From positions 372,001 through 436,000 of the forward strand of contig CP069393.1 of assembly GCA_016887505.1 (NCBI GenBank): DNA of 64,000 nt, in the 5' to 3' direction. The notes beneath the pieces are model-generated. The model worked only from the letters and a program-made list of their open reading frames with translations, was not told the origin of the DNA and searched no databases. The translations under genes were made by a program, and so were the position numbers. How positions within the stretch are numbered: the first letter of the stretch is position 1; each line of letters starts with the position of its first letter. This stretch comes from Clostridia bacterium (lineage in GTDB: Bacteria > Bacillota > TC1 > UBA5767). Of this stretch, positions 28,015 through 37,799 are shown piece after piece.

Positions 28015-28377
28015 TTATCCTTTTCTTTGGGATTTAAGAAATTTTGCAAACTCTCTAACTTTTTCCTGTTCTTCTTGTGTCAAGGTTATTCCACTATTAT
28101 GAGCAGCTATAGTATCGATTGTTTCAGGCTCGGTGTTCCATGACAACAACCAATTAGGCGTAACATCTAGAATGCTACACAACCTAGCAATCATTTCTAC
28201 ATCTGGCTGATTGTCTCCTCTTTCCCAATTTGAAATTACGTTTTTTGTACGGCCAAGTTTATCAGCTAGTTCCTTTTGGTTTAAGCCTTTTCTTTTTCTA
28301 GCTGTACGAATGTTTTCTCCTATACTACTGCTCTTTGTAGATTCCTTTCGATTGTAAACTTCCTTAATCCTATCCAT
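28015..28377 (-). CDS. CI-like prophage repressor (XRE family)
   Basis: 120 residues with an HTH at about 20-75 (ARKRKGLNQKELADKLGRTK) and a short C-terminal tail lacking a LexA-type peptidase domain. That fits repressors inactivated by an ImmA partner, which is encoded just downstream. AAGGGGG precedes the ATG. Four operator-like sites fill the divergent region in front of it. Confidence 0.9.
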   Translation of the reverse strand: MDRIKEVYNRKESTKSSSIGENIRTARKRKGLNQKELADKLGRTKNVISNWERGDNQPDVEMIARLCSILDVTPNWLLSWNTEPETIDTIAAHNSGITLTQEEQEKVREFAKFLKSQRKG

Positions 28378-31248: not shown

Positions 31249-32046
31249 ATGGCGAGACCAAGAAAGCAAACGGTGGACTATTTCCCACATGTTTGTGTAC
31301 ATAAAAAAACTCTATATATCATCGAACGAAGGTATGGAAATGATGGTTATGCCTTCTGGTTTAAGTTGTTAGAAATGCTTGGGAATACCGATGGACATTA
31401 CTTGGATTTGAACGAAATTGAAGTGTGGGAATTTTTGCAAGCGAAGACAATAATGGACTCCGAGAGCTGCACAAATGTATTAAATTTATTATCAAGTTTA
31501 GGCGCAATTGACAAAGAATTATGGGATAAAAAAAAGATAGTTTGGAGTCAAAACTTTGTGGATGGAATAGCAGATGTTTACAAGAAAAGGTATGCGGAAA
31601 CCCCACGCAAGCCGAGTTTTCGCACCGAAAACCTAGTTTCCGATACCGAGAATACCCAAAGTAAAGTAAAGGAAAGTAAAGTAAAGGATAAAGAGATATT
31701 GTCGGGCAAGAAAAACCCGACTCCTCCTCCTTACAAAAAAATCATCGATTACTTAAACAAAAAAACAGGCAAACAATTCAGATCAACATCGAAAGCTAGT
31801 AAACGTTTAATCCAAGCAAGGTACGCTGAAGGATTCAAGGAACAGGAGTTCATCCAGGTGATAGACAACCAAGTGGCAGCGTGGAAAGCAGAAAAGAAGA
31901 TGGTAGCTTATCTTAGGCCACAGACGTTATTCGGGAGTAAGTTCGAATCGTACTTGAATAACAGTCCCAACAACCGAATGTCAAGACCAAATTCCAAATA
32001 TGACCACTTGGTAGTGAACATGATGGAGGATGAAGATGGGAATTAA
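31249..32046 (+). CDS. Phage replisome organizer (DUF4373 N-terminus, TIGR02220-like C-terminus)
   Basis: 265 residues. The N-terminal winged-helix region (DYFPHVCVHKKT, then YGNDGYAFWFKLLEML) matches Lin1244/Lin1753-type replication initiators, and the C-terminal KYDHLV tail follows the conserved phage domain that ends in RPQTLFGSKFESYLN. The linker, SKVKESKVKD, is encoded by tandem DNA repeats. Such proteins bind the phage origin and load the host helicase; the origin is often inside the gene itself. Confidence 0.85.
   Translation: MARPRKQTVDYFPHVCVHKKTLYIIERRYGNDGYAFWFKLLEMLGNTDGHYLDLNEIEVWEFLQAKTIMDSESCTNVLNLLSSLGAIDKELWDKKKIVWSQNFVDGIADVYKKRYAETPRKPSFRTENLVSDTENTQSKVKESKVKDKEILSGKKNPTPPPYKKIIDYLNKKTGKQFRSTSKASKRLIQARYAEGFKEQEFIQVIDNQVAAWKAEKKMVAYLRPQTLFGSKFESYLNNSPNNRMSRPNSKYDHLVVNMMEDEDGN
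31659..31688 (+). repeat. Two tandem 15-bp repeats inside the replisome organizer gene
   Basis: AAGTAAAGTAAAGGA occurs twice in a row (31659-31673 and 31674-31688). It encodes the repeated SKVKE-type linker and could serve as iterons of the replication origin. Confidence 0.5.
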
Positions 32047-33541: not shown

Positions 33542-33793
33542 ATGAATAGCCAAACAACAATCCAAAACCACCTACAATTGCATCACACGCTCAATATGGG
33601 ACTACCACATGCAAGAACTCAATACACGTTAAGCAATAAGTGTCTGAGGGACGCAGAGTTTTTTGAAAAGCTGGCCAAGACTGATTTAGCACCTGGCACT
33701 GTGATAGGAGTTCATCGAGGATCATTCGACATAAAAATGAAATGTGTAAGCATAGACGCTGAAACATGCGAGTGGGAGAAGGTGAGGGCGTGA
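33542..33793 (+). CDS. Hypothetical phage protein
   Basis: 83 residues with AAAGGAGG before the ATG. The second half (GTVIGVHRGSFDIKMKCV) looks like a small beta barrel. No family recognised. Confidence 0.6.
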   Translation: MNSQTTIQNHLQLHHTLNMGLPHARTQYTLSNKCLRDAEFFEKLAKTDLAPGTVIGVHRGSFDIKMKCVSIDAETCEWEKVRA

Positions 33794-34103: not shown

Positions 34104-34694
34104 ATGAATAGAGAACAACACGAATGGATAAGAGCAAATGTAAAGGGCGTCTTGGCATCTGATTTAGTAAGAATGTTCAACGAACGATTTGGAGAAAGTT
34201 GGTCGGTAAATCAAGCAAGAGCATATAAAAAAAATCACAAGTTAAAAAGTGGGATAGATTGCCGATATCCAAAAGGCAGTGTTCCTGCCAACAAGGGAAA
34301 GAAAGTGCCAAAACATAAACAATCCATAGCTACGCAATTTAAAAAAGGAAAAATGCCACACAATCATTTACCTATTGGTTCCGAAGTACTCTCAACGGAT
34401 GGATATTTAAGAACAAAAGTGGCAGAGCCTAATAAATGGAAATTCACACATAAGCTAATATACCAGGAACATAACGGAAAAATACCTGAGGGATATGTTG
34501 TAATTTTTACAGATGGCAATCACCTGAACGTGAACATTGATAATTTAGTGGCAGTACCTAGAATGGTACTACTGACAATGAACCGTAAAGGATTATTCAA
34601 AGAAGACACTGATCTAACTAAGACAGGAATCAAAATTGCTAAGGTGATTAACAGAACTTACGAAATAGAGAAAGAAATTAAGGTGAATAAATGA
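34104..34694 (+). CDS. HNH endonuclease (homing-type) with N-terminal HTH
   Basis: 196 residues. Residues 5-45 look like a HTH (VLASDLVRMFNERFG), the middle is basic, and residues 108-155 carry an HNH-type core (THKLIYQEHNGKIPEGYVV, then DGNHLNVNIDNL). Such genes are often free-standing homing nucleases in phages. It ends overlapping a second, unrelated HNH gene. Confidence 0.75.
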   Translation: MNREQHEWIRANVKGVLASDLVRMFNERFGESWSVNQARAYKKNHKLKSGIDCRYPKGSVPANKGKKVPKHKQSIATQFKKGKMPHNHLPIGSEVLSTDGYLRTKVAEPNKWKFTHKLIYQEHNGKIPEGYVVIFTDGNHLNVNIDNLVAVPRMVLLTMNRKGLFKEDTDLTKTGIKIAKVINRTYEIEKEIKVNK

Positions 34695-35865: not shown

Positions 35866-35924
35866 AGAGGACCTCGTCCCTCAGGAATCAAGAGTATATC
35901 CCTCAGGACTCAAAGGAGGAATAA

Positions 35925-36278
35925 ATGAGCAACTGGAACGATAAGGCAAATGTGATAATGAGAACCAACTATGAAAGCGGAAAGACTTTCAACACAGTCC
36001 CTCAGGTCATTGATGCAGGAGGTAAGCTACCACCTAGATGGAGAGATGAAACCGGCCGGATAGTAAAGAGGGGGAAAAGAAATACTGAGATAATAAAAAG
36101 AAAACCCAAAAAGAGAGAAAGAAGAACCTGGTCGGATGGGGAACTAGAGACAGTACTTAAGATGAGAAAGAAAAACATAACATGGAAAGAGATAGCTGCA
36201 TATTACCGAATGCACGAATCGACATTGGTAAGTAAGGTCCGGAGATTAAAGAAAGCGCTGAGGGACGAGGAGGAATAA
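35925..36278 (+). CDS. Myb/SANT-like HTH phage protein A
   Basis: 117 residues. A basic linker (about 45-65) precedes a C-terminal Myb/SANT-like or resolvase-like HTH: RRTWSDGELETVLKMRKK followed by ITWKEIAAYYRM. AAAGGAGG is at the right distance from the ATG. The next gene encodes a related domain, suggesting duplication. GTCCCTCAGG-type repeats flank the pair and are candidate binding sites. Confidence 0.65.
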   Translation: MSNWNDKANVIMRTNYESGKTFNTVPQVIDAGGKLPPRWRDETGRIVKRGKRNTEIIKRKPKKRERRTWSDGELETVLKMRKKNITWKEIAAYYRMHESTLVSKVRRLKKALRDEEE

Positions 36279-36280
36279 TA

Positions 36281-36562
36281 GTGGATGGCATAATGGAAAA
36301 CTATGCAGCACTAGCTGTAGCAATTCTGTCACCAAGATTTCTGACAGTTGAGGTAGCCTTCATGGTGTATGAGAAAGGACCAAGGCCTAAGCGCGGCGGG
36401 CACCTGAGGGAGGCATGGACCGATCAGGACTGTGAGGATGTCATAAGACTCAAAGGGCAAGGGTTGACATGGCCAGAGCTTGGAGAGGTATACGGTATCA
36501 AGAGGAGCGCTATGATTAAGAGAATGCAGACATATCGCAACAGAAAAATAAAAAGTGCCTGA
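36281..36562 (+). CDS. Myb/SANT-like HTH phage protein B
   Basis: 93 residues with a C-terminal domain parallel to the previous protein: REAWTDQDCEDVIRLKGQG, then LTWPELGEVYGIKRSA. The N-terminal part (NYAALAVAILSPRFLTVEV) is hydrophobic and differs. It uses a GTG start eight bases after GAGGAGG. Confidence 0.6.
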   Translation: MDGIMENYAALAVAILSPRFLTVEVAFMVYEKGPRPKRGGHLREAWTDQDCEDVIRLKGQGLTWPELGEVYGIKRSAMIKRMQTYRNRKIKSA

Positions 36563-36600
36563 GGGACTATATTCATCCGGAGGGTACCTGAGGGACGGGG

Positions 36601-37346: not shown

Positions 37347-37799
37347 ATGACGAAAGCTGAAATTTCTAAGCTCTTAAACAATCATACGTATGTCGAGGAT
37401 GAAATTAGAGAGTGCGTAGAAGAAATGCAGCTACTTGCCGAAGCAATTGACTGCGAGAGAGGCATTAAAGCGACTATCATTAGCGGTATGCCTGGCAATA
37501 CCTCAACAACGAGTGATCCAACATATCAAAAGGCTGCTAAGATATTAGAGGAATACAAAAAGGATATTGATAGGATTGAAAAACGCCAACGTGGTATATT
37601 CCGAAAAAGAGCGCTGGTCGAGTTGTTGCTCGATGTTTTGACGGTCGAAGAAAAGAAAATCATTGAGTTGCGATACTTTAAAAAATACAAATGGTGGATG
37701 GTGGCTAGCAATACACATTATGCTAGACGCCAATGCTTTAATATCCGAGATACTGCAATAGAGAAAATGATTAAAGCGACAATAGAAATGGGAATTTGA
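37347..37799 (+). CDS. ArpU/RinA-like late transcription regulator
   Basis: 150 residues. A helical N-terminal half is followed by a sigma-70 region 4-like HTH (LTVEEKKIIELRYFKKYKWW, then RRQCFNIRDTAIEKM). Such proteins sit at the end of the early region in phages of Firmicutes and switch on the late genes. The intrinsic terminator just downstream fits that role. Confidence 0.75.
   Translation: MTKAEISKLLNNHTYVEDEIRECVEEMQLLAEAIDCERGIKATIISGMPGNTSTTSDPTYQKAAKILEEYKKDIDRIEKRQRGIFRKRALVELLLDVLTVEEKKIIELRYFKKYKWWMVASNTHYARRQCFNIRDTAIEKMIKATIEMGI

Follow-up and report, generated by a model that had tools for sequence, protein, structure and literature searches.

A tailed-phage prophage in a Clostridia bacterium carries seven near-identical 10-base sites in and around two small helix-turn-helix (HTH) genes, hth1 and hth2, whose products may regulate their own operon through them. 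The sites lie at 35876-36596 of the window, that is, the whole stretch of 64,000 nucleotides analysed here (positions 372,001 to 436,000 of contig CP069393.1, assembly GCA_016887505.1; G000:C1:372001-436000 in our numbering). The cluster is genuine and to date without a second example, although it belongs to a familiar type.

The site array

The sites share the form [GAC]TCCCTCAG[GC]: the word TCCCTCAG is common to all seven and is preceded by G, A or C, and the copy at 36257 ends in C. Three sites on the + strand come first and four on the - strand follow. Sites s1 (35876..35885, +, GTCCCTCAGG) and s2 (35898..35907, +, ATCCCTCAGG) lie entirely between the ssb and hth1 genes, and s2 is followed after 5 nucleotides by AAGGAGG, the ribosome-binding site of hth1. 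Site s3 (35997..36006, +, GTCCCTCAGG) is within hth1, and s4 (36257..36266, -, GTCCCTCAGC) occupies the last codons of hth1, directly 5' of GAGGAGG, the ribosome-binding site of hth2. Site s5 (36403..36412, -, CTCCCTCAGG) is within hth2, s6 (36558..36567, -, GTCCCTCAGG) is at its end, and s7 (36587..36596, -, GTCCCTCAGG) is in the gap 3' of hth2, directly 5' of the ribosome-binding site of the next gene. An earlier sequence-only reading had counted seven copies of CCCTCAG within 720 bases here, and all are confirmed, at 35878, 35900 and 35999 on the + strand and at 36258, 36404, 36559 and 36588 on the - strand. It had also placed two pairs exactly in the gaps; this is true of the sites at 35876, 35898 and 36587, but the one at 36558 includes the hth2 stop codon (CC-TGA-GGGAC). 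The sites favour intergenic positions, since at least half of the site falls outside coding sequence in four of the seven, compared with 10.5% of positions (P=0.003). Relative to hth1 and hth2 they face both ways, which argues for recognition of double-stranded DNA. In addition, s1 with its flank is a perfect inverted match of 13 nucleotides to s4 with its flank (35872-35884 / 36258-36270). A literature search for the site motif gave no relevant match.

It is the clustering, rather than the total count, that is non-random. CCCTCAG occurs 10 times over the whole window against 5.45 expected, a number that was reached in 9 of 100 shuffles and is hence ordinary; the copies outside the array are at 33644, 34486 and 3413, all on the - strand. 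However, TCCCTCAG with its seven copies within 750 bases is the densest 8-mer of the window, whereas the maximum per 750 bases was only three or four copies in 30 simulations of the whole window (order-2 Markov). The Poisson probability of seven sites in 728 bases is 4e-17, before correction for the choice of word and place. The earlier claim of a density above chance is therefore upheld for the cluster.

Two further look-alikes had been proposed, at 34484 and 33643. The copy at 34484 corresponds to the I-P-E-G codons of an HNH_3 protein, and because the homologue in the related phage L094 carries that word at matching codons (L094:365), this look-alike is coding-driven. The copy at 33643 (GTCCCTCAGA) sits within an open reading frame and is doubtful as a genuine site of the array type.

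Pattern searches of the 2.56-Mb host genome (G000) gave 36 occurrences of NTCCCTCAGG, of which six are within the 720 bases of the array, one is the HNH look-alike and 29 are elsewhere. Six of the 36 genome sites of the 9-mer TCCCTCAGG likewise fall in the array, and the remaining host copies are single and scattered. No second cluster was found in this genome, so the motif count that had been suggested as a check revealed no equal density, and a host-wide element was rejected. The array is also the sole place in G000 with the paired form CCTGAGGGA-N4-34-CCTGAGGGA, which occurs once each in four of 397 other genomes of the phylum, with unrelated spacers. The CCTGAGGGA pair was matched in other collections in 36 viral and at least 120 genome contigs, nearly all of them tandem repeats in one direction, and the paired inverted arrangement of the array was absent from these listed matches. 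Dense GTCCCT/AGGGAC repeats in both orientations were seen in Sinomonas sp. ASV322 (L310:7330-7470) in a non-coding, G+C-rich and unrelated context, and are perhaps an insertion-sequence end. As a separate observation, CCTGAGGGA outside the prophage keeps to one strand per chromosome half of G000 in 28 of 29 cases and has only three occurrences there when read backwards; a control word, CCTGAAGGA, is less polar. This polarity could stem from coding and GC-skew bias, or the word could be a polar sequence that orients the chromosome.

The hth1 and hth2 genes

The two genes are co-directional on the + strand with 2 bases between them, and the same AGGAGGAATAA precedes each. The gene hth1 (35925..36278) encodes 117 amino acids with a predicted trihelical HTH at the C-terminus, and hth2 (36281..36562) encodes 93 amino acids, also with a predicted trihelical HTH. 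As had been supposed, their products are related and belong to one HTH family. The profile phrog_11376 matches hth2 with an E-value of 2e-15 over 87 residues, covering the N-terminal and HTH parts, and matches hth1 with an E-value of 1e-6 in the HTH part only; a second, weak match of hth1 is phrog_323, a 'D5-like transcriptional regulator' (E 3e-5). No Pfam family reaches the cut-off for either product. AlphaFold2 models the C-terminal HTH of HTH1 confidently (predicted local distance difference test, pLDDT, 94-98) and that of HTH2 well (pLDDT about 86-89), with the N-terminal half of HTH2 poorly modelled. Profiles and models together thus point to an HTH fold in both proteins. A Foldseek search of the PDB returned nothing better than E 0.5, the weak matches being to HTH folds of a generic type (sigma region 4, LuxR type, Myb), and the earlier label 'Myb-like' can be kept as a description of the fold but not as a family assignment. 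Relatives of hth2 are distant (27-39% identity) and come from phages and genomes of the same phylum. In two other contigs (L092:4161-5156 and L093:2873-3868) an endonuclease-like protein that has LAGLIDADG-type motifs ends in an hth2-like HTH at its C-terminus, as judged by inspection.

Comparison with related phages

Among 80 related phages compared through a terminase search, none has an hth gene or a cluster of sites. The closest syntenic one, L094, has a terminase (terL) 84% identical to that of the prophage and shares the HNH, ssb, mazG, sigma-like, terS and terL genes on both sides of the array. Its stretch between ssb and mazG holds other genes; hth1, hth2 and all sites but the coding-driven one are absent. 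A general link between the hth2 family and repeats was rejected, as 14 viral and four genomic relatives have no cluster around the gene. These comparisons suggest that the array accompanies this particular hth1-hth2 pair or, at the least, this insertion, two possibilities that one carrier cannot separate.

Repeats of other motifs do occur outside the HTH gene in some relatives. Non-coding DNA 3' of a DUF927 gene in Thermoanaerobacterium phage THSA-485A (L027:3157-3450) contains about ten copies of AGGTAACCGA in both orientations, and in genome G056 the repeats (GGTAACCAAAA) are inside a separate replication-initiator-like gene. Some hth2-family genes have repeat clusters at a distance of 2-3 kb, namely ACAAGGGTTG and GTGTTACA (L085:7498-7693; L082 and L083:2615-2831), which are perhaps replication iterons.

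Prophage setting

On the - strand of the prophage are an integrase-like gene (26412) and a repressor-like gene (28015-28377). One long run on the + strand includes a replication initiator (31249-32046, Lin1244_N/Phg_2220_C), followed on its 3' side by a RusA-like open reading frame, two HNH genes, two ssb genes, hth1, hth2, a MazG-like gene and a RinA/sigma-like (RinA/ArpU-like) regulator gene at 37347, 750 bases 3' of the array. A terS-like gene 1.3 kb from the array, an HNH gene and the terminase come next. The integrase-like, repressor-like, RusA-like and terS-like labels were assigned from sequence and position. The phrog_11376 member of THSA-485A is close to a RinA-like gene too.

Inside the initiator gene, four NCGRAAACY iterons (31594..31643, 50 bases, +) are likely to be the replication origin of the prophage, judging from their placement. 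Relatives of the initiator carry iterons of their own inside the initiator gene, such as GTAGAAAC or CAGAAACC (L339, L343, L353-L355, L374 and L393), and the NCGRAAACY set is placed where those are and is unrelated to TCCCTCAG. The CCCTCAGG array is 4 kb from the initiator gene and its motif is distinct. Since the initiator gene has its own different set, the array was rejected as the replication iterons of this initiator and is not a canonical origin; the copy-control role once proposed for it is weakened in that form.

A proposed iterated operator and its alternatives

We see about an even chance that HTH1, HTH2 or both regulate their own operon through the seven sites. The TCCCTCAG sites would then make up one iterated double-stranded binding array for one or both proteins, with several protein molecules seated on the inner three sites as well as on the two outer pairs (35876/35898 and 36558/36587). 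Since the three sites on the left and the four on the right point towards one another, the bound molecules could link the two ends, and the complex would limit transcription through hth1-hth2, perhaps into the next gene, resulting in autoregulation. The clustering far beyond chance, its confinement to this operon in the genome, the preference of the sites for intergenic gaps, the membership of both genes in one HTH family with confidently modelled HTH helices, the joint absence of genes and sites from L094, the mixed orientation expected of a double-stranded DNA site and the precedent of KfrA described below all argue for such an operator. The earlier suggestion of a DNA-binding array, plausibly for both HTH proteins, consequently stands as the best reading, with sites present only together with these genes; HTH1 and HTH2 as the binders, the bridging and repression as the sign of regulation are what we infer. 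A stronger version, in which both proteins build a bridged nucleoprotein complex across their own operon from the facing arrays and block elongation through the prophage early region, is quite unlikely; if true, it would represent a novel roadblock switch of phages, distinct from both stoperators and promoter operators.

Several points weigh against the operator. A consensus scan, itself weak, found no promoter-like sequence on the + strand near or overlapping the sites and thus gave no sign of a textbook promoter operator. The whole ssb-mazG stretch differs in L094, and the joint absence of genes and sites there is therefore weak evidence. Around the gene, a repeat cluster was found at none of 15 other hth2-family loci, hence the family by itself does not imply an array. 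Moreover, no relatives of hth1 were detected in sequence searches, and neither HTH protein has a direct link to the sites.

This last point and the array-free hth2 relatives would equally suit binding by another prophage or host factor, such as the RinA/sigma-like protein encoded 750 bases downstream or a host regulator, with the HTH genes as bystanders. We regard this as unlikely, for L094 retains the RinA/ArpU-like regulator at 72% identity yet has no sites, the host genome has no second similar cluster, and the region before the repressor-like gene contains no site even when two mismatches are allowed. Control at the level of RNA, in which base pairing within the messenger RNA between the three + copies and the four - copies hides ribosome-binding sites, is improbable. 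It would explain why s2, s4 and s7 are directly 5' of ribosome-binding sites and why the 13-nucleotide complement of s1 lies beside that of hth2, and the minimum-energy fold does pair s1 with s7 and s2 with s6. However, the stability of that fold is unexceptional (z -1.39), inverted repeats of any kind pair in a model, and an Rfam search gave no match. The two orientations relative to the genes rule out a single RNA motif, although long-range pairing could fit.

The remaining alternatives treat the array as a DNA element. Dense short repeats in two orientations beside ssb resemble iteron or centromere arrays, and some hth2-related phages, for example THSA-485A, have dense repeats nearby, which would suit an accessory origin, a partition-like site or a packaging site with an HTH nucleoprotein complex. 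Yet the initiator gene has its own iterons where its relatives have theirs, the G056 repeats belong to an initiator-like gene, none of the annotated genes surrounding the array looked ParA-like, and the array, 1.3 kb from terS, is absent from the terminase relatives; we give such a maintenance role little probability. Nor do we favour a mobile or exchange cassette, which seems improbable, in which the outer pairs would be the inverted ends of an hth1-hth2 unit of about 720 bp, similar to the multi-site ends of Tn7, Mu or IS21. Consistent with it are the inverted order of the three left and four right sites, an alignment between the flanks of the ends that extends beyond the cores (score 46 against a mean of 30, P 0.0015) and the absence of the module from L094. 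On the other hand, part of the extra flank similarity (TTTTA) is the coding end of ssb, common to L094; no target-site duplication was seen in the flanks, no transposase lies between the ends and there are no TG...CA ends. Neither a second copy in the genome nor an inverted copy among the listed matches of the viral and genome collections was found, and a paired inverted arrangement with no other copy argues against a mobile cassette. The recombination element of the sequence-only reading is thereby weakened, as no recombinase accompanies the array either.

Comparison with known systems

The nearest precedent, by analogy, is the KfrA operator of plasmid RA3. KfrA is an HTH autorepressor whose operator comprises five 9-bp repeats, three in one orientation and two in the opposite one, with no further copies on the plasmid; KfrA needs several repeats, its sites overlap one promoter in a short stretch, and the protein has a long alpha-helical tail (PMC7783346). 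Like that operator, the array consists of several short repeats that face both ways and keep to the locus of the regulator, but it has seven 10-bp sites over 720 bp, some of them intragenic, no evident promoter and two small HTH proteins. The stoperators of cluster A mycobacteriophages are asymmetric 13-bp sites for a phage-encoded regulator, many of them in short intergenic gaps within transcribed regions, that are scattered over the whole phage genome and oriented with transcription (PMC9283540). In a comparison of the sites, both are asymmetric and often intergenic, whereas the array is confined to 720 bp and one operon and faces both ways. Iterons of phage initiator genes are also short repeat clusters in both orientations in the early region, but here that place is taken by the separate NCGRAAACY set. 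Transposons and insertion sequences with multi-site ends differ in having a transposase, other copies and a target-site duplication, none of which was found at the array.

Both proteins belong by profile to phrog_11376, HTH1 more weakly, although the other members, such as Tsac_2869 of THSA-485A, have no CCCTCAGG sites. This family carries no functional annotation, and because the prophage supplies a concrete candidate for the target sequence of two members, their function becomes testable. If the sites inside the genes are functional, the array would be a compact added case of regulation by sites within coding sequence.
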